This document shows positions 2,043 through 47,082 of a DNA stretch of 64,000 bases, in pieces (the first letter of the stretch is position 1; each line of letters starts with the position of its first letter). The position numbers were made by a program, and so were the translations under genes. Origin of the DNA: an uncultured Bacteroidales bacterium (GTDB taxonomy: Bacteria; Bacteroidota; Bacteroidia; Bacteroidales; Paludibacteraceae); the NCBI GenBank assembly GCA_900318245.1, contig ONJT01000002.1:1-64000 (forward strand). Direction: 5' to 3'. The notes beneath the pieces were generated by a model, which was not told the origin of the DNA, did no database searches, and saw only the letters and a list, made by a program, of their open reading frames with translations.

Positions 2043-3302
2043 TTACTTCCTTCGAATCCATCCGAAGGGACGACGGGGTTCTTCTTTTTCCTCCACTTTC
2101 TTTTCCTCTTTCGGTTGTTCCTCTTCGATGGTGATGACTACGTCATCAGCCGAAGTAGAAGCGGCATGCTCACGCGGCTGGCGCGGTGCGGTCTCAAAGC
2201 CTTCGGCAAAGAGCGTCTCACTCAGGTCGATGAGTTGCGGATTCTCGTCCTCCATCGGTTTCGGGGTCTGCGGCGGGTAATTCGCCTCAATCGCTTCGGA
2301 GATGGTTTTCTTGCCTTCCTCCTCTTCTTCCGAAGGAAGACCATCCACCTTATAGCCCGTAGCGATGACTGTCACGCGCACTTCATCACCCAGACTCTCG
2401 TCGATAGACGCGCCCCACTGTACCTCGATATCGTCGCCCACTTCCTGCACGAAGTCATTGATCTGGTCGATCTCTTCCATCACGATCGCGTGCTCCGTTG
2501 AACAGTAGAACTGCAGCAATATCCGCTCAGCGCCGTGAACGTCATTCGTGTTGACGAGCGGCGAGTTCAGGGCGTCGTTGATGGCATTCGTGATACGCTT
2601 CTCGCCCGAAGCATGACCGATATTCATGATCGCTACACCACCCTTGCGCAGCGTGTTGCGCACATCGGCGAAGTCCGTGTTGATATAGCCCGGCACGGTG
2701 ATGATCTCGGCGATCGCACGCGCCGCATTCGCGACTACGTCATCCGACTTACTGAAGGCATTGAGCAGGTTGAGTTCCGGGTAGATTTGTTTCAGTTTCT
2801 CATTATTAATAATGAGAAGGGCGTCTACATGTTTGGCCAGACGCGCCACACCCGTCATCGCCTTCTCGATCTTCTTCTTGCCCTCAAAAGCAAAAGGAAT
2901 AGTGACGATACCTACGGTCAGAATTCCCATCTCTTGCGCTACTTCGGCGACGATGGACGAAGCGCCTGTACCCGTACCACCACCCATACCGGCGGTGATG
3001 AACAACATTTGCGTACCATCATTCAGCGCCTCGCGGATATGCTCGCGGCTCTCCTCGGCGTACTGACGCGCGGTCTCAGGATCGCCGCCCGCACCTAAAC
3101 CCGGGCCTAACTGTAACTTACTGGGCACCGAACTCTTGATGAGCACTTGGCGGTCGGTGTTGCATACGAGGAACGAGACGTCGCTCAGTCCCTGACGAAA
3201 CATGTAGTTCACGGCGTTGCAGCCGCCACCACCTACTCCGATCACCTTGATGATACTGTCTTCTGTCAATCCTTCCAGCGGAAGGGTGAAATTGTCTTCC
3301 AT
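2043..3302 (-). CDS. ftsZ: Cell division protein FtsZ
   Basis: The tubulin-like GTPase that polymerises into the Z ring. The nucleotide-binding glycines GVGGGGCNAV lie near residues 22-31 and the tubulin signature GGGTGTG at 107-113. After about residue 330 comes an acidic, low-complexity linker, and the basic end RRPFGWIRRK is the usual C-terminal peptide for FtsA and other partners. I chose the ATG at 3302 (419 aa); an upstream in-frame TTG at 3320 would overlap ftsA and adds residues not typical of the family. The start lies four bases after the ftsA stop, so translation is probably coupled to it. Last of the murC-ftsQ-ftsA-ftsZ run. Confidence 0.97.
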   Translation of the reverse strand: MEDNFTLPLEGLTEDSIIKVIGVGGGGCNAVNYMFRQGLSDVSFLVCNTDRQVLIKSSVPSKLQLGPGLGAGGDPETARQYAEESREHIREALNDGTQMLFITAGMGGGTGTGASSIVAEVAQEMGILTVGIVTIPFAFEGKKKIEKAMTGVARLAKHVDALLIINNEKLKQIYPELNLLNAFSKSDDVVANAARAIAEIITVPGYINTDFADVRNTLRKGGVAIMNIGHASGEKRITNAINDALNSPLVNTNDVHGAERILLQFYCSTEHAIVMEEIDQINDFVQEVGDDIEVQWGASIDESLGDEVRVTVIATGYKVDGLPSEEEEEGKKTISEAIEANYPPQTPKPMEDENPQLIDLSETLFAEGFETAPRQPREHAASTSADDVVITIEEEQPKEEKKVEEKEEPRRPFGWIRRK

Positions 3303-6824: not shown

Positions 6825-6867
6825 TTGCATATGTCAAATATTTTCCGTACCTTTGCAGCCGCAAAGG
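6825..6867 (+). promoter_or_regulatory. Promoter of the MNT/HEPN module with inverted repeat at -7
   Basis: The -33 box is TTGCATATGTCAA (6825-6837) and the -7 box TACCTTTG (6848-6855). The end of the -7 box forms the left arm of CCTTTGC-AGCC-GCAAAGG (6850-6867), a perfect inverted repeat across the expected transcription start. Bases 6848-6870 are the same as those before the DUF3791 gene at 22152-22174. Confidence 0.8.
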
Positions 6868-6886: not shown

Positions 6887-7207
6887 ATGACGAACAATAG
6901 TAACATATTAACGCAAATCCAGACTCTTGGGAAGAAAGTTCTTCCGAAGGGAAGTAGTTTGCTGCTGTATGGCTCTCGGGCGCGCGGAGACAACCGCGAG
7001 GACTCCGATTATGATTTGGTTGTGTTGGTGGACAAGGACAAGCAACAATTGCAGGATTTTACTGATTATGCTTATCCTTTCATGGAAATGGGTTGGGAAT
7101 TAGGCGCAGAGATTAACCCTATGCTTTATACGCGTAAAGAATGGAATCAACGCCATTTTACGCCGTTCTATAAGAATGTTGAACACGACAAAATAGTTTT
7201 AGTATGA
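6887..7207 (+). CDS. MNT-type nucleotidyltransferase (antitoxin-like)
   Basis: A 106-residue minimal nucleotidyltransferase. GSRARGDNREDSDYDLVVLV near residues 29-48 carries the GS and DxD metal and nucleotide motifs of the pol-beta superfamily. In MNT-HEPN pairs this protein neutralises the HEPN RNase by adding AMP to it. The next gene is the expected HEPN partner but is reduced to its C-terminal part, so this unit is probably decaying or has been repurposed. AT-rich compared with the murC cluster. A strong-looking promoter lies 30 bases upstream. Confidence 0.85.
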   Translation: MTNNSNILTQIQTLGKKVLPKGSSLLLYGSRARGDNREDSDYDLVVLVDKDKQQLQDFTDYAYPFMEMGWELGAEINPMLYTRKEWNQRHFTPFYKNVEHDKIVLV

Positions 7208-7344
7208 GTCTTGCAGTCATGGAAAACATGCGCGAAAAAGCAGATTACGATGTTATCTATGACGTATCACGAGAAGATCTTGAGGCTCTGAAACCTGTAG
7301 CGTATGAGCTCTTGACCATCATTGAACAGTTATTAAAGCAATAA
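7204..7344 (+). pseudogene. Remnant of HEPN partner protein (internal deletion)
   Basis: An open frame of 46 residues starts with ATGA overlap on the MNT stop. After MSLAVMEN it continues as REKADYDVIYDVSRED and an amphipathic helix, which matches only the last third of a HEPN domain (usually about 120-130 residues, with a conserved R-x-KADY block near the end). The first two helices and the usual RNase Rx4-6H motif are absent. The simplest reading is an in-frame internal deletion of about 80 codons. It may still be translated. Confidence 0.7.
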
Positions 7345-7349
7345 TATAT

Positions 7350-7380
7350 CGCTGGCCTTGACAGCGTTAAAAAGCAAGGG
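7350..7380 (+). ncRNA. Conserved H-type pseudoknot, copy 1
   Basis: Stem 1 is CGCTG (7350-7354) with CAGCG (7362-7366). The loop bases CCTTG (7356-7360) pair with CAAGG (7375-7379) to make stem 2, and the A-rich connector TTAAAAAG lies between. Copies occur at 23106 (+) and 47140 (-); in the former, stem 2 is CACCG/CGGTG, so three of five pairs changed together. It begins five bases after the HEPN remnant's stop and is followed 30 bases later by a long hairpin. The topology recalls small pseudoknot riboswitches, but no known class is matched. Confidence 0.65.
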
Positions 7381-7410
7381 CATAATAAAGTATAGCGTAA
7401 TAAGCCCAAC

Positions 7411-7547
7411 TTGATTGTTTGAAAACTGGACACTTTCAACAATTCATTGTTAACTCAAGTCATGGTTTATGCACGCTCACGTATCAGCGTGAGTTTTCCG
7501 TGCGTAAATTTGAGTTAACAAGGTTGTCCAGAACCTCAAACAATCAA
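7411..7547 (+). ncRNA. Long nested hairpin in leader, copy 1
   Basis: A 137-base segment folds on itself in five successive perfect or near-perfect stems: 7411-7422/7536-7547 (12 bp), 7426-7432/7525-7531 (7 bp), 7447-7458/7510-7521 (12 bp), 7466-7475/7499-7508 (10 bp with one G-U) and 7476-7481/7488-7493 (6 bp), closing on the loop TATCAG. No T-run follows, so it is not a simple terminator. The lipoprotein gene starts 62 bases downstream. Confidence 0.8.
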
Positions 7548-7609
7548 ATGAAGCGACCGAAAAACGCACGCTTTTTATTGTATGTTACTAACTAAAAATT
7601 TATAATAGT

Positions 7610-7972
7610 ATGAAGAAAAGATTTTTATTATTTGTCCTATGTGCCTTAGTGGCAGGAACGTTCTGTTCGTGTAATGATACGTTCTCAAAAAATTACCCCA
7701 TCCTCTATGTGGTAAATGGAACTGACTATTCTGTAGAAGTGTATTGCGACAATCACTTAGTCGCGACAGCTGGCGCACATAATAATAGTGGGAAAGTGGA
7801 GTTAAATAACACTTCTATCAACTTGCCTGTGCTTGTTGAAGCAGAGTTTTATGATAATAAGGGGAAACGTGTTGGTGGATACAAATGGAGCTCTTATCAT
7901 TTTAGTTGGAACAAATCGTATAAAATGACATTAACAACTTCATCTTCTTCAAGTTCTCTTAAAGAATTGTAA
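7610..7972 (+). CDS. Small predicted lipoprotein
   Basis: A 120-residue protein with a basic N-terminus, a hydrophobic stretch and cysteines at the end of LVAGTFCSC, which fits a lipoprotein signal. The mature part is rich in beta-type residues and ends in a serine run. I do not recognise a family. It is AT-rich, stands alone, is preceded by the pseudoknot and long hairpin and followed by a clear terminator. No promoter of the usual type is visible between the HEPN remnant and this gene, so it may be expressed from the MNT promoter through the structured leader. Confidence 0.7.
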   Translation: MKKRFLLFVLCALVAGTFCSCNDTFSKNYPILYVVNGTDYSVEVYCDNHLVATAGAHNNSGKVELNNTSINLPVLVEAEFYDNKGKRVGGYKWSSYHFSWNKSYKMTLTTSSSSSSLKEL

Positions 7973-19196: not shown

Positions 19197-20126
19197 TTAG
19201 ATGTAGTTAACTTCGGGGTTAATGGTGATATTGAATTTCTCTTTAACGCTCGCGCTGACGGCTGCCGCGAGGTCGATGATGTCTTGTGCGGTAGCATTGT
19301 TCGCATTGACGATGACCAGCGGTTGCTTAGACCATACCTGCGCGCCGCCGAGCGTCTTGCCTTTCCATCCGCATTGCTCGATGAGCCATGCAGCAGGAAT
19401 CTTCACGCCTTGCGGTGTCTCGAAATGCGGCATGTCGGGATAGAGTTTGAGCAGTTCGTTCGCTTGCTCTTCCGGCACAAAGGGATTCATGAAGAACGAA
19501 CCCGCCGACCCCACTTCGCCGACTTTCGGCAACTTGCCGTTACGGGTCTCAATAATCTCTTCGCGGGTCTTGGTCGCATCGCCGGGCTTCACTCTATACA
19601 CCACCGACGTGACGATATATTTGCCTTTGAGTTCGTGTTTGAAGGCGCTGTCGCGGTAGCCGAACTTACACTCCTCATTCGTAAAGACGCGCTCCTCGAG
19701 CGTCTCCACATCCAGCGTATAGACGCGCTCTATCACATCTTTGGCCTCGCAACCATACGCGCCGACATTCTGAACGGCCGACGCACCCACTTCGCCCGGG
19801 ATGAGACTCAGTTTTTCCATGCCGCTGTAGTTCATGTCGGTCAGTTGGGCAATGAGGTCGTCCAATCTTAGACCATTCTGCGCCTCTACCGTCTCGTCAT
19901 CTAGGAACTTCGCCCGCGCCATGCCGGAATGCAGAATAACTCCGTCGAAGTCCTTGGTAAACAGCAAGTTAGAACCCTGCCCGATATGCAGAATCCGTTC
20001 ACCTTTATGCTCCTTCAGCACTTGACGCAACTCATCCAACGAGTAGTACTCGATGAACAACCGCGCCTTGGCGTCGATGCCGAAGGTATTATAAGGCAGC
20101 AAAGATATGTTAGATACAGCACGCAT
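19197..20126 (-). CDS. murB: UDP-N-acetylenolpyruvoylglucosamine reductase MurB
   Basis: A 309-residue FAD enzyme that reduces the MurA product to UDP-MurNAc. The N-terminus SNISLLPYNTFGIDAKARLF is typical; the FAD-binding block IGQGSNLLF, the region VGASAVQNVGAYGCE, and the catalytic serine and asparagine in GSAGSFFMNPFV are visible. I chose the ATG at 20126, inside the end of nadE (17-base overlap). nadE-murB-murA form one transcript. Confidence 0.95.
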   Translation of the reverse strand: MRAVSNISLLPYNTFGIDAKARLFIEYYSLDELRQVLKEHKGERILHIGQGSNLLFTKDFDGVILHSGMARAKFLDDETVEAQNGLRLDDLIAQLTDMNYSGMEKLSLIPGEVGASAVQNVGAYGCEAKDVIERVYTLDVETLEERVFTNEECKFGYRDSAFKHELKGKYIVTSVVYRVKPGDATKTREEIIETRNGKLPKVGEVGSAGSFFMNPFVPEEQANELLKLYPDMPHFETPQGVKIPAAWLIEQCGWKGKTLGGAQVWSKQPLVIVNANNATAQDIIDLAAAVSASVKEKFNITINPEVNYI

Positions 20127-22041
20127 CGCTTGGCATTCTCCAGTCCCCGCGGGGAGATAATGAAACAGAAACAACTTTCGGCCCGTCGGGCATACAACTG
20201 CGCTTGAACTGCTGGGTGCAGAAACGGCGCATGAAGGTGTTCAACCACTTATCGATGGTTGCCTCGTCGTATTGGTCTTCGAAGGCCTGGCAAGCCATAT
20301 AACGGATCTTCTCACGGGTGAAACCGTAGCGCAGGAAATAATAGATGAAGAAATCATGCAGGTCGTACGGGCCTACTTTGTCCTCGGTTTTCTGCGCTAT
20401 CTCGCCGTGATCATCCGTCGGCAGCAGTTCCGGCGATACCGGTGTATCCACGATATCCAACAGGATCTCGCGAAGCGGTTCGCTATACATATTCTCCGCC
20501 GCATAACCGACAAGGAAACGCACGAGGGTCTTGGGAATACCGGTATTGATGCCGTACATCGACATCTGGTCGCCGTTGTAAGTACACCATCCGAGGGCTA
20601 ACTCACTCAGGTCACCGGTGCCGACCACGAGTCCGTTCAACTCATTGGCGAGGTCCATAAGGATTAAGGTACGTATACGCGCCTGCGCGTTCTCATAGGT
20701 CACGTCATGGACATCCATGTTATGCGCTATGTCGTTGAGGTGTTGCGTTGTGACGTCGCAGATAGAGATCTCGCGATGGGTGATGCCCAACTCGCTCATA
20801 AGGTGCAACGCGTTCTGGTATGTGCGGTCGCTTGTTCCGAAGCCGGGCATCGTCACGCCGACGATGCGCTCGCGGTCATAGCCTAAAAGATCCGCTGTCT
20901 GAACGCATACCAACAAGGCCAGCGTACTGTCCAAGCCGCCGGAGATACCCAGCACAAGGGTCTTTGCGTGCGTGTGTTCCCAACGACGAGCCAAGCCGTT
21001 CGTCTGGATAGAGAAAGTGTCCAGGCAGTACTGGTCTTCCTCTCCTTTATTTGGCAGGAACGGCAACGCCGAGAAATGACGGTGTAGCGGCTCGGTCATC
21101 TGCTCTTCGCGCTCTATCGGAGCCACGTTGATATGACGGTAGTGACCGGATTTATCTTTGGTAAAGTTCGTGTTGCGCTGACGGTCGGTACGCAAACGCT
21201 CGACATCTATCTCCTGGATATTCATCGTGCTCTCACGCTGGAAACGCTCGCCCTCGCAAAGCATCGTGCCGTTCTCGGCGATGTAGGTACTGCCGGAGAA
21301 AACGACATCTGTCGTGGACTCGCCTACGCCCGAAGAAGTGTATATATAGCCGCAATGAACACGGGCACTCTGCTGTGTGATCATCTGACGACGGAAAGCG
21401 TGCTTGCCAACGATGCAGTTGCTGCTCGACAGGTTAAAGACCAGCTCCGCGCCTTGGATGGCCAATTGGGTCGAAGGAGGTAACGGCGACCACAGGTCTT
21501 CACATATCTCCACGCCGAAAGTGTAGTTACGGGTGGTGAAAAGCAAATCTGTGCCAAAAGGTACTTCTCCACTCCATATCTCTATCTTCGGAATACGCGG
21601 AGCAATACCGCCGGGTGTGAACTCACGGGCTGCACGCCCCGATGTGAACCAGCGTTTCTCGTAGAACTCACCCGTGTTCGGGAGGTTCACTTTCGGAACA
21701 ACACCCATCACTTCGCCGTCCGTCATCACGAAGGCGCAGTTGAAGAGATCGTTGTCCACTTTCAGCGGAGCACCGACAAGCACGATGATTGCCTTGCCGC
21801 GCGTGTAGTCGCAAAGACTTTCCAACTCGCGCAGCGCGCTATGTTGCAGGGCTTGCGTGAAGAAAAGGTCCGCGCAGGTATAGCCTGTTATACTCAATTC
21901 CGGGAAGCATATTACTTCCACGCCTTCAGCGATTGCTTCGTCAATCTGCAAACGAATCTGCTCAGCGTTGAACTTACAATCCGCTACACGCATAGTCGGC
22001 ACTGCCGCCGCCACACGCACAAATCCCAAATTGGTTTCCAT
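20110..22041 (-). CDS. nadE: Glutamine-dependent NAD+ synthetase
   Basis: A 643-residue two-domain enzyme. The N-terminal nitrilase-like glutaminase has its Glu in FPELSITGYTCADLFF and its Cys in NLSSSNCIVGKHAFRR; the C-terminal ATP-dependent synthetase has the pyrophosphatase loop LGISGGLDSTLAL near residue 370. Ammonia made in the first domain amidates deamido-NAD in the second. The start METNLGFVRVAAAVPTMRVA is chosen at 22041, 20 bases after the promoter's -7 box. Confidence 0.96.
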   Translation of the reverse strand: METNLGFVRVAAAVPTMRVADCKFNAEQIRLQIDEAIAEGVEVICFPELSITGYTCADLFFTQALQHSALRELESLCDYTRGKAIIVLVGAPLKVDNDLFNCAFVMTDGEVMGVVPKVNLPNTGEFYEKRWFTSGRAAREFTPGGIAPRIPKIEIWSGEVPFGTDLLFTTRNYTFGVEICEDLWSPLPPSTQLAIQGAELVFNLSSSNCIVGKHAFRRQMITQQSARVHCGYIYTSSGVGESTTDVVFSGSTYIAENGTMLCEGERFQRESTMNIQEIDVERLRTDRQRNTNFTKDKSGHYRHINVAPIEREEQMTEPLHRHFSALPFLPNKGEEDQYCLDTFSIQTNGLARRWEHTHAKTLVLGISGGLDSTLALLVCVQTADLLGYDRERIVGVTMPGFGTSDRTYQNALHLMSELGITHREISICDVTTQHLNDIAHNMDVHDVTYENAQARIRTLILMDLANELNGLVVGTGDLSELALGWCTYNGDQMSMYGINTGIPKTLVRFLVGYAAENMYSEPLREILLDIVDTPVSPELLPTDDHGEIAQKTEDKVGPYDLHDFFIYYFLRYGFTREKIRYMACQAFEDQYDEATIDKWLNTFMRRFCTQQFKRSCMPDGPKVVSVSLSPRGDWRMPSDACCI

Positions 22042-22049
22042 ATTCAAAC

Positions 22050-22092
22050 AATTTTGCGGCGCAAAATTACACAAAAAAAATGATATATGCAA
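22050..22092 (-). promoter_or_regulatory. Promoter of nadE-murB-murA
   Basis: On the minus strand: -33 TTGCATATATCA (22092-22081) and -7 TAATTTTG (22069-22062). The -7 box is one arm of AATTTTGC-GGC-GCAAAATT (22050-22068). Confidence 0.8.
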
Positions 22093-22127
22093 ATGTTTTG
22101 CATTTTTGCGACAATTTTTCACTTTTA

Positions 22128-22171
22128 TTTGCATATATAAAAAATTTTCTGTACCTTTGCAGCCGCAAAGG
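22128..22171 (+). promoter_or_regulatory. Promoter of the DUF3791/DUF3990 module
   Basis: -33 TTTGCATATA (22128-22137), -7 TACCTTTG (22152-22159), inverted repeat CCTTTGC-AGCC-GCAAAGG (22154-22171). Bases 22152-22174 are identical to the MNT promoter region at 6848-6870. Confidence 0.8.
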
Positions 22172-22186
22172 TTAAACAATACCATT

Positions 22187-22402
22187 ATGAGCAAGTATGA
22201 AATTCCATTTTTGACGAGTGCGATACAGGCGTTTGCGAACAGGTTTGCCATGACACGGCAAGCTGCCTTCCGCTATTTGCAACAATACAAAGCACTTGCA
22301 TTCTTGATGGAGTTCTACGACGTAGAGCATCTGCAATCGATGGACGACACCATTGATGATATGCTCATCGTCTGTCGCAAAAACGGGGGAACACTGGCAT
22401 GA
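22187..22402 (+). CDS. DUF3791 family small protein
   Basis: A 71-residue protein with the DUF3791 character: an N-terminal helix, YLQQYKALAFLMEFYDVEH, then QSMDDTIDDMLIVCRKNGG. Proteins of this family are found beside DUF3990 genes. First gene of a three-gene unit; its stop overlaps the next ATG by four bases. It could be an antitoxin or accessory factor, which is inferred from context only. A second member starts at 63892. Confidence 0.75.
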   Translation: MSKYEIPFLTSAIQAFANRFAMTRQAAFRYLQQYKALAFLMEFYDVEHLQSMDDTIDDMLIVCRKNGGTLA

Positions 22403-22887
22403 TACTTTTCCACGGCACGAATACAGACATAGAGAAGATAGATCTTTCTCGCAGCCTAAATCATAAGGACTTCGGCAAAGGTTTCTACCTCACGGATTCG
22501 CGTGATACGGCCATTCGTATGGCTACCAAGAAAGCGCATCTTTTCGGTGGCAAAGCAACGCTTATCAGTTATGAGTTCGATGAATCGGCTTTGCATTCGG
22601 ACTTAAAAGTCAAAGCCTTTCCAGAGAGAGCAAGTGTAGAATGGTTTGTCTTTGTGGATGCCAACCGCGATCGCGCTAACACATTGCCGATACACGATTA
22701 TGATATTATTGTCGGACCGATTGCTGATGATGGTGTAGTTCTGCAAATTACTCGTTATCGGGAAAATATCTACTCCGCTGAGGAGGCCGCAAAAGGTCTT
22801 CAAGACAAATTCCTTGACCAGCAATATTATTTCGGCACAGAAAAAGCTTTGCACTATCTCAAAAAATCAAAAGTACAAATACTATGA
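22399..22887 (+). CDS. DUF3990 protein, ADP-ribosyltransferase-like
   Basis: A 162-residue protein that begins LFHGTNTDIEKIDL, followed by DFGKGFYLTDSRDTA and later FPERASVEWFVFV. The order His (HGT), Tyr (GFYLT) and Glu fits an H-Y-E type ADP-ribosyltransferase fold as in DUF3990/DUF3990-like toxins. The family is annotated as a domain of unknown function; toxin activity is inferred from the fold signature and the tight three-gene unit with ATGA overlaps on both sides. Confidence 0.75.
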   Translation: MILFHGTNTDIEKIDLSRSLNHKDFGKGFYLTDSRDTAIRMATKKAHLFGGKATLISYEFDESALHSDLKVKAFPERASVEWFVFVDANRDRANTLPIHDYDIIVGPIADDGVVLQITRYRENIYSAEEAAKGLQDKFLDQQYYFGTEKALHYLKKSKVQIL

Positions 22888-23099
22888 TGCAGGCAAATCA
22901 TCATCAAATAGCGACTTACTTGACCGACTATGCCTTGAGCGAGTTGGTTCGTTACGTCATGGAGGATACCGGCTGCAATCTGGAGCAAGCCATGGAGCGA
23001 GTTTATAACTCCTCGCTGATGCCTGCATTACAAGATGAAGAAAACGAACTCTATGTTCAAAGTCCTGCATATCTCTATGAGATGATGAAAGGACAATAA
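22884..23099 (+). CDS. Small protein of DUF3791/DUF3990 module
   Basis: A 71-residue acidic helical protein; the pattern ending YVQSPAYLYEMMKGQ is common in short proteins coded directly after DUF3990 genes in Bacteroidales and Firmicutes. No named domain is known to me. It overlaps the DUF3990 stop by four bases. The pseudoknot element begins six bases after its stop. A regulatory or antitoxin role is possible. Confidence 0.65.
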   Translation: MMQANHHQIATYLTDYALSELVRYVMEDTGCNLEQAMERVYNSSLMPALQDEENELYVQSPAYLYEMMKGQ

Positions 23100-23105
23100 A
23101 AATAC

Positions 23106-23135
23106 TGCTGGCACCGACAGCGTAAAAAAGCGGTG
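23106..23135 (+). ncRNA. Conserved H-type pseudoknot, copy 2
   Basis: Stem 1 GCTG (23107-23110) with CAGC (23118-23121), extendable by a T-G pair; stem 2 CACCG (23112-23116) with CGGTG (23131-23135); A-rich connector TAAAAAAG (23123-23130). Relative to copies 1 and 3, stem 2 has changed in three pairs with complementarity kept, while the connector and stem 1 are conserved. Confidence 0.65.
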
Positions 23136-23169
23136 ACATATTGAATATTCGCGTTTGCGATTTATTCGG

Positions 23170-23279
23170 TAATCCAAAATGTGAGAAGTTTTGAGAATAC
23201 TACACTGATAAATCGGCAAGTGCCCACATAGTGGGCGTTGCTTGTTTGTAGTATAGGCCTTTCTCACAGCCTTGGATTA
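23170..23279 (+). ncRNA. Long nested hairpin in leader, copy 2
   Basis: Stems: TAATCCAA/TTGGATTA (23170-23177 with 23272-23279), TGTGAGAA/TTCTCACA (23180-23187 with 23261-23268), ATACTACA/TGTAGTAT (23197-23204 with 23247-23254), CAAG/CTTG (23217-23220 with 23241-23244) and GCCCAC-ATA-GTGGGC (23222-23236). No sequence similarity to copy 1, but the same architecture. The next ATG is 49 bases downstream. Confidence 0.8.
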
Positions 23280-23328
23280 AATAAGGAACGTCCATTTTTT
23301 TTGTATAACCATTAAATAATTAATCATT

Positions 23329-23961
23329 ATGAAAAAATCTATCTTTGTTATCGCAGCCCTCTTTGCTGCCACATTTGCTGATGCACAGATTACTTTACTC
23401 CATGTTTGGGAAGGTCAAGCATCGGTAACTGTCAACCCTTATGCCAGTTTATATGGCTATGACTTTGAAGCTCCTTATCTCTATGATATGCAAGCAACTA
23501 ACGGCATCGTAAGATTATATAATAAGGATGACTTCTCCCTGTACAAAGCCGTTCAAACACCTCATACTGAGAGAGGCTTTGAGTGTTACCTTGTATCCAG
23601 AAACATTTTGACCACGGATAATAAGGTTTGTTTCGCGTTGGTAGATCAAGGAACAGGAACAAGTAATTCTATTTTCATTTATAATGAAGACGGACAATTA
23701 GTAACCACTCTTACAGGACAAACGCCTTTTTTAATAATGCTTAACGACACTTATTATCTACTCACTTATTCCTACTATTATAATGGGGGTGAAACAAAAT
23801 ATGAGACTCGCGTCTATTCTGTACCCGGTAATGGCGAATCCGGTCAAGACATATCTACTCCGGTAGCACCGCGCAACTCGCGTAAAGTCCTCAAAAAGGA
23901 CCAAGTTCTTGTTGAGAATGCAGACAAAACCTATACACTCCAGGGACAGGAGGTAAAGTAA
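23329..23961 (+). CDS. Exported protein with Bacteroidales C-terminal motif
   Basis: A 210-residue protein with a signal peptide (MKKSIFVIAALFAATFADAQ), a beta-rich middle with repeated short strands, and the tail RKVLKKDQVLVENADKTYTL followed by QGQEVK. That tail matches a short C-terminal motif found on many Bacteroidales secreted proteins (K-x-nGq-x-I-x-k-x-G-K-x-Y-x-x-x-G-Q). No enzymatic domain is recognised. The gene is AT-rich, follows the structured leader, and is closed by a terminator. Confidence 0.7.
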   Translation: MKKSIFVIAALFAATFADAQITLLHVWEGQASVTVNPYASLYGYDFEAPYLYDMQATNGIVRLYNKDDFSLYKAVQTPHTERGFECYLVSRNILTTDNKVCFALVDQGTGTSNSIFIYNEDGQLVTTLTGQTPFLIMLNDTYYLLTYSYYYNGGETKYETRVYSVPGNGESGQDISTPVAPRNSRKVLKKDQVLVENADKTYTLQGQEVK

Positions 23962-45384: not shown

Positions 45385-46914
45385 TTAGAATTGGAAATAA
45401 ATAAAGGTTTGTTCTGTTCCTGCATTTTGAATAATCATCCACACAAGCACATAATAGAAAGCTATTCGAATCCATTTGTATTTGCTTGCGTTTAGGACCT
45501 CAAGTCCATGTTGCTTATTGCGTTGTATCCATTCAACAACAATCATTACTATAATATACAAGTTTGTCGGATACACAATATATGCGTTCAGTAAAAAGAA
45601 ACGATAACTTGCACGTAGTGTGCCAAATTGCATCATTCCGCAGATGTAGTCCCATGCTTGCGTGATTGTTTCGGCGCGGAAGATGATCCAGCCTAGAACG
45701 GCAAGGAAAAAGGTAATGAGAATTTGCAGAGCTTCGCGCCATGTGGGTAAGAGGCGGAGGTGCTCGACGCCGGAAGCGTCTGTATAGGTGCCAACCTGGT
45801 TGGTATATTTGCGGTTTTGACCGAGGAGGATGAGGGGTAAAAAGAGGAGAGCATGGTATGCGCCCCAAACTATAAAAGTCCAATTGGCTCCGTGCCAAAA
45901 GCCGGAAAGAAGGAAGATGACAAAAGTGTTGCGGATGATGATGAGTTTTTTGTACCGGTCGGGGTTTTGAATGTGCGCAGGAACTTCAGGACGTGAACCA
46001 CCTAACGGGATATAAACATAATCGCGGAACCAAGTGGTGAGGGAGATGTGCCAACGACGCCAGAACTCGGCTATGTCACGCGAAAAATAAGGGTTGTTGA
46101 AGTTGCGCATGAGTTTGATGCCAAAGAGTTTGGCGGTTCCGATAGCTATGTCCGAATAACCGGAGAAGTCTCCGTAGATCTGGAAAGTAAAGAGAATTGC
46201 AGCAAGAAGCAAAGTACTACCTTTTTGAGTGTCATAGGTTGCCCAAACTTGATCCACATAAGTCGCGCAGTTGTCAGCAACTACTATCTTTTTGAACAAG
46301 CCCCACAAGATTTGGCGCATTCCGTCCACGGCTTGGTCGTAATTGAATTTGCGGTTGGCTTGGAATTGCGGCAAGAGGTTCGTGGCGCGTTCAATAGGAC
46401 CTGCGACAAGTTGCGGGAAGAATGCTACGTACGCAAAGAAGGCAACGATATCACTTGTTGGTTCTATCTTCTTGCGATAGACGTCGATGGAATAACTGAG
46501 TGCTTGGAAAGTATAGAAAGAAATGCCGACAGGAAGGATGATTCGAAGCAAAAGGCAGTCTGTGGAGATGCCAAAGAGTTGTCCGAACTCGCGTACAAAG
46601 AAATCGTAGTACTTGAAGACTGCGAGAATGGCGAGATTGAGAGCTATATTAGCAGCTGTCCATACTTTCGCGTTTTGGGGAGTTTGCGATTTTGCAATGA
46701 GTAATCCGCTGCCCCATGAGCAGAACGATGTAAACGCGATGAGTAATAAGAAGCGCCAATCCCACCAGCCGTAGAAGACGTAACTGGCGATGACAACAAA
46801 CGCGTTTTGTAGCCGCAGTTTGAGAGTATCATTTATGTGTGAGTACCCGATTGCCCAGTAAATGAGGAATACAATGGGCAAAAATATAGCAAATTCGATT
46901 GAGTTGAATAACAT
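45385..46914 (-). CDS. MBOAT family O-acyltransferase (AlgI/PatA-like)
   Basis: A 509-residue protein with many transmembrane helices; the conserved block FLLSGFWHGANWTFIVWGAY carries the catalytic His, and PQLVAGPIERATNLLPQ and WHISLTTWFRDYVYIPLGG are typical of AlgI. It carries acyl groups, usually acetyl, across the inner membrane for exopolysaccharide or wall modification. Its ATG lies 20 bases after a long structured leader hairpin. Three bases separate it from the SGNH gene. Confidence 0.93.
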   Translation of the reverse strand: MLFNSIEFAIFLPIVFLIYWAIGYSHINDTLKLRLQNAFVVIASYVFYGWWDWRFLLLIAFTSFCSWGSGLLIAKSQTPQNAKVWTAANIALNLAILAVFKYYDFFVREFGQLFGISTDCLLLRIILPVGISFYTFQALSYSIDVYRKKIEPTSDIVAFFAYVAFFPQLVAGPIERATNLLPQFQANRKFNYDQAVDGMRQILWGLFKKIVVADNCATYVDQVWATYDTQKGSTLLLAAILFTFQIYGDFSGYSDIAIGTAKLFGIKLMRNFNNPYFSRDIAEFWRRWHISLTTWFRDYVYIPLGGSRPEVPAHIQNPDRYKKLIIIRNTFVIFLLSGFWHGANWTFIVWGAYHALLFLPLILLGQNRKYTNQVGTYTDASGVEHLRLLPTWREALQILITFFLAVLGWIIFRAETITQAWDYICGMMQFGTLRASYRFFLLNAYIVYPTNLYIIVMIVVEWIQRNKQHGLEVLNASKYKWIRIAFYYVLVWMIIQNAGTEQTFIYFQF

Positions 46915-46934
46915 AAAAAGTGTGAACTTCTTAT

Positions 46935-47082
46935 GCGTTTACCGAGGTGCTTAGGAAACCTCCACCAAATATAAGAAGCCCACACTTTATGTGTGAACAT
47001 TACTTGCATTTTTGGTGTTGATTCCTATGAATCCCCAGTATTATCTCGGATTTAAGAAAGGTTCCTAAGCTTCGGTAAACGC
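46935..47082 (-). ncRNA. Long branched hairpin in leader, copy 3
   Basis: Outer stems GCGTTTACCGA/TCGGTAAACGC (46935-46945 with 47072-47082) and GCTTAGGAA/TTCCTAAGC (46949-46957 with 47062-47070). Inside, on the minus strand, are GATTC-ATAG-GAATC, CACCAAA/TTTGGTG (46963-46969 with 47011-47017) and CACAC/GTGTG (46981-46995). It sits between the pseudoknot and the MBOAT start. Confidence 0.75.

Follow-up and report, generated by a model that had tools for sequence, protein, structure and literature searches.

A candidate attenuator leader RNA and a separate pseudoknot border ahead of surface and restriction genes in Paludibacteraceae

We analyzed a stretch of 64,000 nucleotides (the window) from an uncultured bacterium of the Paludibacteraceae. 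A preliminary description of this DNA reported the same pseudoknot-forming sequence, which we call PK1, at 7350 (+), 23106 (+), and 47140 (-), and a pattern scan bore this out. With up to three mismatches allowed, the scan found three copies of PK1 and nothing else, each with zero mismatches: copy 1 at 7350-7379 (+), copy 2 at 23106-23135 (+), and copy 3 at 47140-47111 (-). (Shuffled windows gave 0.35 matches on average, and three matches were reached in 1 of 100 shuffles.) PK1 is predicted to fold as an H-type pseudoknot: CGCTG/CAGCG form stem 1 (copy 2 has TGCTG), stem 2 lies in the loop, and loop 3 is A-rich. All 30 nt are the same in copies 1 and 3. Their stem 2 is CCTTG/CAAGG, versus CACCG/CGGTG in copy 2, a change on both strands. 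As the preliminary description had it, each copy is followed by a spacer, a long hairpin, and a start codon. The downstream genes encode a protein with a lipoprotein-like N-terminus (7610..7972, +), a protein with a secreted-like N-terminus (23329..23961, +; both assigned by eye), and an MBOAT acyltransferase (45385..46914, -; Pfam).

Ahead of copy 1, a promoter -7-type box that fits TAnnTTTGC, the promoter consensus for Bacteroidota, lies within a palindrome at 6848..6856 (+). Two genes stand between this promoter and PK1: a nucleotidyltransferase gene (6887-7207, +; Pfam NTP_transf_2) and a gene of 46 amino acids (7204-7344, +) whose product we take to be a HEPN-like remnant. The stop codon of the second gene is 5 nt ahead of PK1 and 6 nt ahead of its GCTG core. 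The genes ahead of copy 2 are a DUF3990 gene (22399-22887, +; Pfam) and a gene of 71 amino acids (22884-23099, +). Copy 3 has a promoter-type box directly ahead of it (box start 47164, minus strand). A palindrome of the form TTTGC-N2..4-GCAAA occurs at window positions 6852, 22053, 22156, 43746, 47148, and 62195, where it covers the -7 box and the likely start site; its arms covary by eye. We rejected this palindrome as the end of a cassette, because three of its six sites in the window are at ordinary genes away from PK1.

The preliminary description suggested looking for further copies of PK1 in related genomes, and these are common. The bacterium's own genome has 9 matches to the PK1 pattern, versus 0 for the reversed pattern, and a slightly looser pattern is found in 80 of 178 genomes from the genus (own genome included), with 0 control matches throughout. 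A wider scan of contigs identified 111 stretches with PK1; nearly all of the 80 that were listed are titled as MAGs of Paludibacteraceae or Bacteroidales. The pattern is also present in two viral contigs. The loci that we fetched contain 133 distinct copies, of which we kept 131; PK1-like matches in Rheinheimera (L045) and in a viral sequence (L152) look like chance and were excluded from later counts. Other pseudoknot types, such as one that starts with CGTC, occur in tandem with PK1 or in its place.

Stem 2 covaries among these copies. It is fully paired in 47 of the 68 distinct 34-mers, while shuffling gave a mean of 22.3 and a maximum of 34 in 5,000 shuffles. Counted by copy, all five stem-2 positions are paired in 95 of 127. 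In the other 32 of 127, pairing of stem 2 is incomplete.

We classified the context of PK1 by simple rules, with ORF ends counted within 120 nt. The 131 copies lie after a co-oriented gene (68), after a promoter-type box (53), or after neither (10). Among the 68 copies that follow a gene, 35 are within 12 nt of the stop codon, and in 23 of these direct cases, the distance from the stop codon to GCTG is 6 or 7 nt. The other 33 are farther away (21 with another hairpin first, and 12 with neither). Some copies have no recognized leader and stand directly ahead of another gene or promoter. To see what kinds of genes end at PK1, we reduced 60 upstream genes to 39 representatives and searched these against Pfam one by one. 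More than half (22 of 39) belong to toxin-type or phage- or nuclease-type families. The ten toxin-type genes are YoeB/ParE (5), HepT (2), AbiEii, PIN, and Zeta, and the 12 phage- or nuclease-type genes are RhuM (3), Bro-N (2), ORF6N (2), KilA-N (2), YhcG (2), and a polyvalent kinase. The remaining representatives are DUF2442 (4), other families (3), or have no family over the cut-off (10).

A few arrangements around PK1 were seen at single loci. In the bacterium's own genome, one array (L001, 644-2500) comprises a RhuM-type gene, PK1, a stretch of small genes with its own promoter box, PK1 again, and a leader. At L150, a tRNA-Ala(GGC) gene (3167-3241, -) lies between PK1 and the leader-type sequence that follows. 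At L018, L088, and L143, a further pseudoknot-like sequence, CCGATG..CGATGGGATATAA, was noticed by eye about 10 nt ahead of start codons.

Comparison to relatives shows that genes were inserted ahead of copy 2. Window positions 20001-22169 align at about 90% identity to a related locus (L097), and this alignment ends 8 nt ahead of the GCTG of that locus's PK1; it restarts at window position 23104, which is 3 nt ahead of GCTG. The 934 bp in between (22170..23103, +) contain a short ORF and the two genes named above, and are absent from three relatives (L097, L088, and L099), with the same left and right edges in each comparison. PK1 with the stem type of copy 2 is already present in the empty sites, so PK1 copy 2 belonged to the acceptor. 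Nothing similar to copy 2 was found in collections of plasmids and phages.

A screen of all copies identified 6 filled/empty pairs at two loci. One locus is copy 2 of the window, and the other is L064 versus L124, where the insert carries its own CGTC-type pseudoknot and coaE adjoins (by eye). A third pair, at the rimP locus (L008 versus L027), has the same insertion position; it did not pass the screen, and its left flank aligns in short pieces, with a promoter piece of 46 nt at 85% identity. At all three loci, an insert of 0.5-1.1 kb lies between the start site and PK1. PK1 looks like a border at which genes resembling toxin-antitoxin genes are inserted downstream of a promoter. The preliminary description had suggested the end of a mobile unit, which came close to the mark, as PK1 borders the inserted genes.

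It is conceivable, although we rate it as rather less than probable, that these stretches are swapped by homologous exchange, with the promoter and PK1 as short conserved arms, and that PK1 has a role in the mRNA, such as the protection against 3' exonucleases that REP elements provide. Both ends of the swapped stretches are sequences that are conserved at many loci, and an mRNA role would fit with PK1 being found so often directly past stop codons. However, the arms are just 30-45 nt or so.

The sequences of the three long hairpins in the window are unrelated, as was originally described, but they share one architecture. Each has an outer stem, a GAA-type strand that faces (A)RCC, and an inner stem, then an apex that varies and a 3' element followed by a U-run. 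We call these hairpins leader RNAs. Leader 1 (7411..7576, +) has the core stems, with the apex 3' arm at 7486-7505 and the 3' element and U-run at 7558-7576. Leader 2 (23149..23302, +) belongs to class I and has its apex 3' arm at 23231-23248 and its 3' element and U-run at 23281-23302. Leader 3 (46915..47082, -) has its core at 47082-46916, its apex 3' arm at 46986-46971, and its 3' element and U-run at 46934-46915; this U-run touches the start codon of the MBOAT gene. When we scanned both strands of the 64 kb for this architecture, blind to PK1, we found these three leaders alone (+7411-7575, +23170-23298, and -46916-47082). A scan of five shuffled single strands found 0. Because we derived the rule from leaders linked to PK1, these three among them, scanning the window tests specificity and not discovery; it may also miss weaker leaders. 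Across the related loci, enough sequence is available 3' of 126 PK1 copies. The core rule is matched there in 73 of them, compared to 1 of 126 with shuffled sequence, and the other 53 have no recognized leader. Two contigs of the bacterium's own genome (C7 and C8) both terminate in a near-identical leader and gene.

The pairing of the class I leaders is conserved. Across 25 of them, 96.9% of cells are paired versus 87.2% when shuffled (0 of 500 shuffles), although the finder that selected the members requires both core stems, which biases this value upwards. Also, 114 cells are changed on both sides of a pair, compared to 34.5 when shuffled (0 of 500). In the outer stem, 7 of 8 pairs are changed on both sides. 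Counted by pair, the signal is smaller: 14 of 38 pairs are changed on both sides, which 18 of 500 shuffles reached, and the 35 pair types are below the shuffled mean of 38.5. The terminator helix has 3 double changes, which are 3 cells, apparently all from L095. Overall, the core pairing and the covariation of stem 2 in PK1 make a cis-acting structured RNA, as was first proposed, very likely. We also observed that the outer stem (columns 33-41 and 150-157) is very variable and yet 99.5% of its cells are complementary, in part because of how members were selected, while its neighbors are conserved.

A model of the class I leaders matches 129 of the 178 genomes from the genus. In the order, it matches 28 of 295 genomes, from 23 of 183 genera (own genus included). 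(Model R1 scores 131.8 bits at 23149-23299 of the window, but this copy belongs to the model.) The preliminary description could not name a known class for this RNA, and Rfam agrees. We found no family for PK1 or the leader at the gathering threshold in the whole window, and no match at threshold in permissive searches of a 601-base stretch and 8 loci. A permissive search of 23080-23330 (251 bases) gave weak, sub-threshold models only, with DUF805 and DUF805b unlisted at E values of up to 10. A literature search with partial coverage found no title or opening of an abstract that names this RNA. The leader looks like an RNA family from gut bacteria that has not been catalogued. HMP2_4205 and related candidates in Bacteroidetes (Fremin and Bhatt 2021, PMC8040213) are long, palindromic, and terminator-like, and by their description alone they resemble the leader in this form.

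In 11 loci from across the order, Rfam's DUF805 and DUF805b models (RF03081 and RF02914) do match, along with some miRNA models below threshold. Like PK1 and the leader, these are small structured RNAs upstream of genes; they are beside the leader at two of the 11 loci, and the DUF805b match can be drawn, by eye, as a small pseudoknot. They differ from PK1 in that they come after the leader (at L240 and L242) and PK1 comes before it. The DUF805b and DUF805 elements at 1605-1641 and 1733-1797 of L240 and at 1432-1467 of L242 suggest composite leaders.

The preliminary description noted that all three downstream genes encode membrane or exported proteins. This holds in the window (for MBOAT by Pfam, and for the other two by eye), and by a simple hydropathy rule, 41 of 59 downstream genes look exported, as compared to 59 of 247 control ORFs. 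It is not the whole picture, however, as DNA methylases and restriction genes are among the targets as well. Based on 65 of 79 representatives (in which L236 is on the wrong strand and L235 is not the first gene), the downstream families include BspA-type leucine-rich repeats (8), lipocalin-like proteins (4), MBOAT (2), EcoRI methylase (2), MmeI, and a type III methylase.

The 3' end of the leader is matched to its interior. For 27 divergent leaders, which share under 30% of their 6-mers, we computed the pairing of the 14 nt before the U-run with the interior of each leader. The average energy was -15.2 kcal/mol with the leader's own interior and -10.6 kcal/mol with swapped interiors (0 of 5,000 permutations). 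A leader's own interior came first in 8 of the 27 rankings, was among the best five in 18, and came 12th or lower in 4. In two leaders (L016 and L019), the strongest duplex forms away from the apex 3' arm. The matched arm also pairs with its own upstream 45 nt (-12.9 versus -10.0 kcal/mol when swapped; 0 of 5,000). So, the arm usually has two partners, one of which ends at the U-run. In leader 3 of the window, the duplex runs unbroken through the 14 nt examined (-19.0 kcal/mol). At the order loci outside the genus, own pairing was stronger in 10 of 11 (-14.6 versus -11.3 kcal/mol; 0 of 5,000), but there the U-run was chosen by its own energy, with no matching control, and one locus was left unparsed (L241) and another looks mis-picked (L239). 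A run of at least 4 T occurs within 75 nt of all 73 cores, and a run of at least 5 T in 59 of 73. In contrast, 455 of 1,460 random 75-nt stretches have a run of at least 4, which strengthens the attenuator reading. The two conserved pairings and the U-run make up an attenuator-like layout, with exceptions among the leaders. Both pairings might form at once, as a pseudoknot; we infer that they are alternatives.

The long hairpin might instead be a constitutive terminator, or a stable structure in the untranslated region, that does not switch. A constitutive terminator would account for the T-run after every core, and a promoter-type box lies between the U-run and the start codon in 6 of 59 leaders, as at the rimP locus. 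But the other 53 of 59 genes have no such box after the U-run, and neither the two partners of the apex arm nor the recurrence of the core in several genera is needed for a plain terminator, so we consider this explanation to be unlikely. Like known attenuation leaders and riboswitches, these RNAs are 5' leaders in which one arm can pair in two ways and a U-run precedes the gene; unlike those, they have no match at threshold in Rfam, and their targets are surface, acyltransferase, and restriction genes. Antitermination of the UpxY/LoaP type, in which the expression of surface operons depends on a leader, is similar in this respect. We did not find a specialized NusG paralog: there is one match to PF02357 in the bacterium's own genome, which is 92% complete.

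The preliminary description treated the pseudoknot and the hairpin as one element, and this did not hold up. We examined the best 30 class I loci from the 129 genomes, chosen blind to PK1, and called pseudoknot types by regular expression. PK1 was present at 8 loci, the CGTC type at 7, a looser match at 4, and none at 11, so an insulator is not obligatory. We also inspected the 9 best MBOAT loci from relatives and the own genome, of which 7 could be parsed. By eye, the leader is retained with MBOAT in 6 of these 7 (closely in 3 and diverged in 3), and at L154, the leader class was switched. The stretch from the promoter to the leader varies among these loci: it holds PK1, a variant pseudoknot, or a gene (four different ones were seen) whose border is of another kind. 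The leader keeps its place ahead of the downstream gene, whereas what lies between it and the promoter (PK1, other pseudoknots, simple hairpins, or a gene and its border) is exchanged. PK1 also occurs without a recognized leader. These results point to two separable modules, a switch-like leader and a PK1 border.

On balance, we lean towards a joint reading of these modules, with functions predicted from sequence: an attenuator leader and, ahead of it, PK1 as a separate insulating border. The long hairpin would be a cis-acting leader that acts as a transcription attenuator. Pairing of the apex 3' arm with the apex 5' arm would give an antiterminator fold, and pairing of the same arm with the 3' element that abuts the U-run would give an intrinsic terminator. 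With one fold, RNA polymerase would go on into the downstream gene, be it for a surface protein, an acyltransferase, or restriction-modification; with the other, it would stop. Some signal would presumably shift the balance. PK1, which typically stands 6-7 nt past a stop codon or shortly after a start site, would separate the leader from whatever lies upstream. Small toxin-antitoxin or phage-type genes may be gained between the promoter and PK1, where they would use the existing promoter, and PK1 may keep ribosomes on those genes, or the folding of their RNA, off the leader. The insertion position at the three loci is observed directly; the insulating role is our interpretation of it.

A more speculative explanation, and one that we doubt, is that PK1 is a site of recombination or transposition, as folded DNA or RNA, at which some recombinase places cassettes behind promoters, as in an integron. 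Three loci have inserts past the start site and ahead of PK1, and PK1 copies occur as co-oriented pairs and triplets that are 0.5-1.5 kb apart. Loop types of PK1 agree within genomes more often than expected by chance (0.48 versus 0.23; 0 of 5,000; 117 copies in 36 genomes, among the matches listed, with relatedness uncorrected), and this homogeneity is not something that an insulator alone requires. Also, of 54 pairs of loci with over 150 nt of upstream homology, 24 have homology ending at PK1 (+25..+50). This last point is weak on its own, because PK1 itself is conserved, and 11 of the 54 end beyond +120 and 11 before -100. Moreover, PK1 is already present in the empty sites, no extra pseudoknot arrives with the insert at two of the three loci, and the copies are scattered rather than in one array.

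Integron cassettes are small genes, many of toxin type, behind a promoter and with a structured 3' border (attC), and the three filled/empty loci do show insertion of genes past a promoter and always at the same site. In contrast to integrons, the border here is a 30-nt pseudoknot that the empty sites already contain, at scattered loci. The attC core box motif is AAC/GTT, and by eye, the listed PK1 copies do not show attC folding with such boxes; the long hairpin has no conserved box either, so we rejected it as an attC site. The integron integrase (TIGR02249) was over the cut-off in 0 of 178 genomes, with weaker matches in 177 of them and also in 14 of 14 control genomes. REP elements, which are linked to RAYT transposases, are dispersed, structured, and often next to stop codons, as is PK1, but PK1 is a pseudoknot and not a hairpin. 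The Y1 transposase domain (PF01797) is found in 68 of the 178 genomes at E = 0.001 (48 over the cut-off), and not in the window's own genome, which has 9 copies of PK1. Another candidate, that PK1 is the antitoxin RNA of a type III toxin-antitoxin system (ToxI-like), is very improbable: such RNAs are short H-type pseudoknots, at times in tandem, near toxin-like genes, but ToxN (PF13958) was over the cut-off in 0 of 178 genomes, with one weak match, and PK1 is flanked by toxin and phage genes of other kinds. In short, profile searches did not support readings based on an integron integrase, RAYT, ToxN, or a NusG paralog.

The attenuator leader with an insulating PK1 border thus remains our preferred reading. 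If it is correct, then a switch-like RNA that is found in 23 of 183 sampled genera would be a common control point for the genes that phages and hosts meet first, although we infer this link of the leader to phage-facing genes. A bolder idea, which we put forward as a long shot, is that PK1 serves as the structure that an undescribed system of gene capture recognizes. The promoter, the insertion point, and the pseudoknot would then form an acceptor platform for toxin-antitoxin and phage-defense genes, which would enter in the reading direction. Downstream of this platform, a Bacteroidales-wide switch RNA would govern surface and restriction genes. In that case, defense genes and phage-facing genes would share one regulated transcript. 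More broadly, the capture of toxin-type and phage-type genes at the PK1 border makes it testable how genes settle behind promoters without a known integrase.
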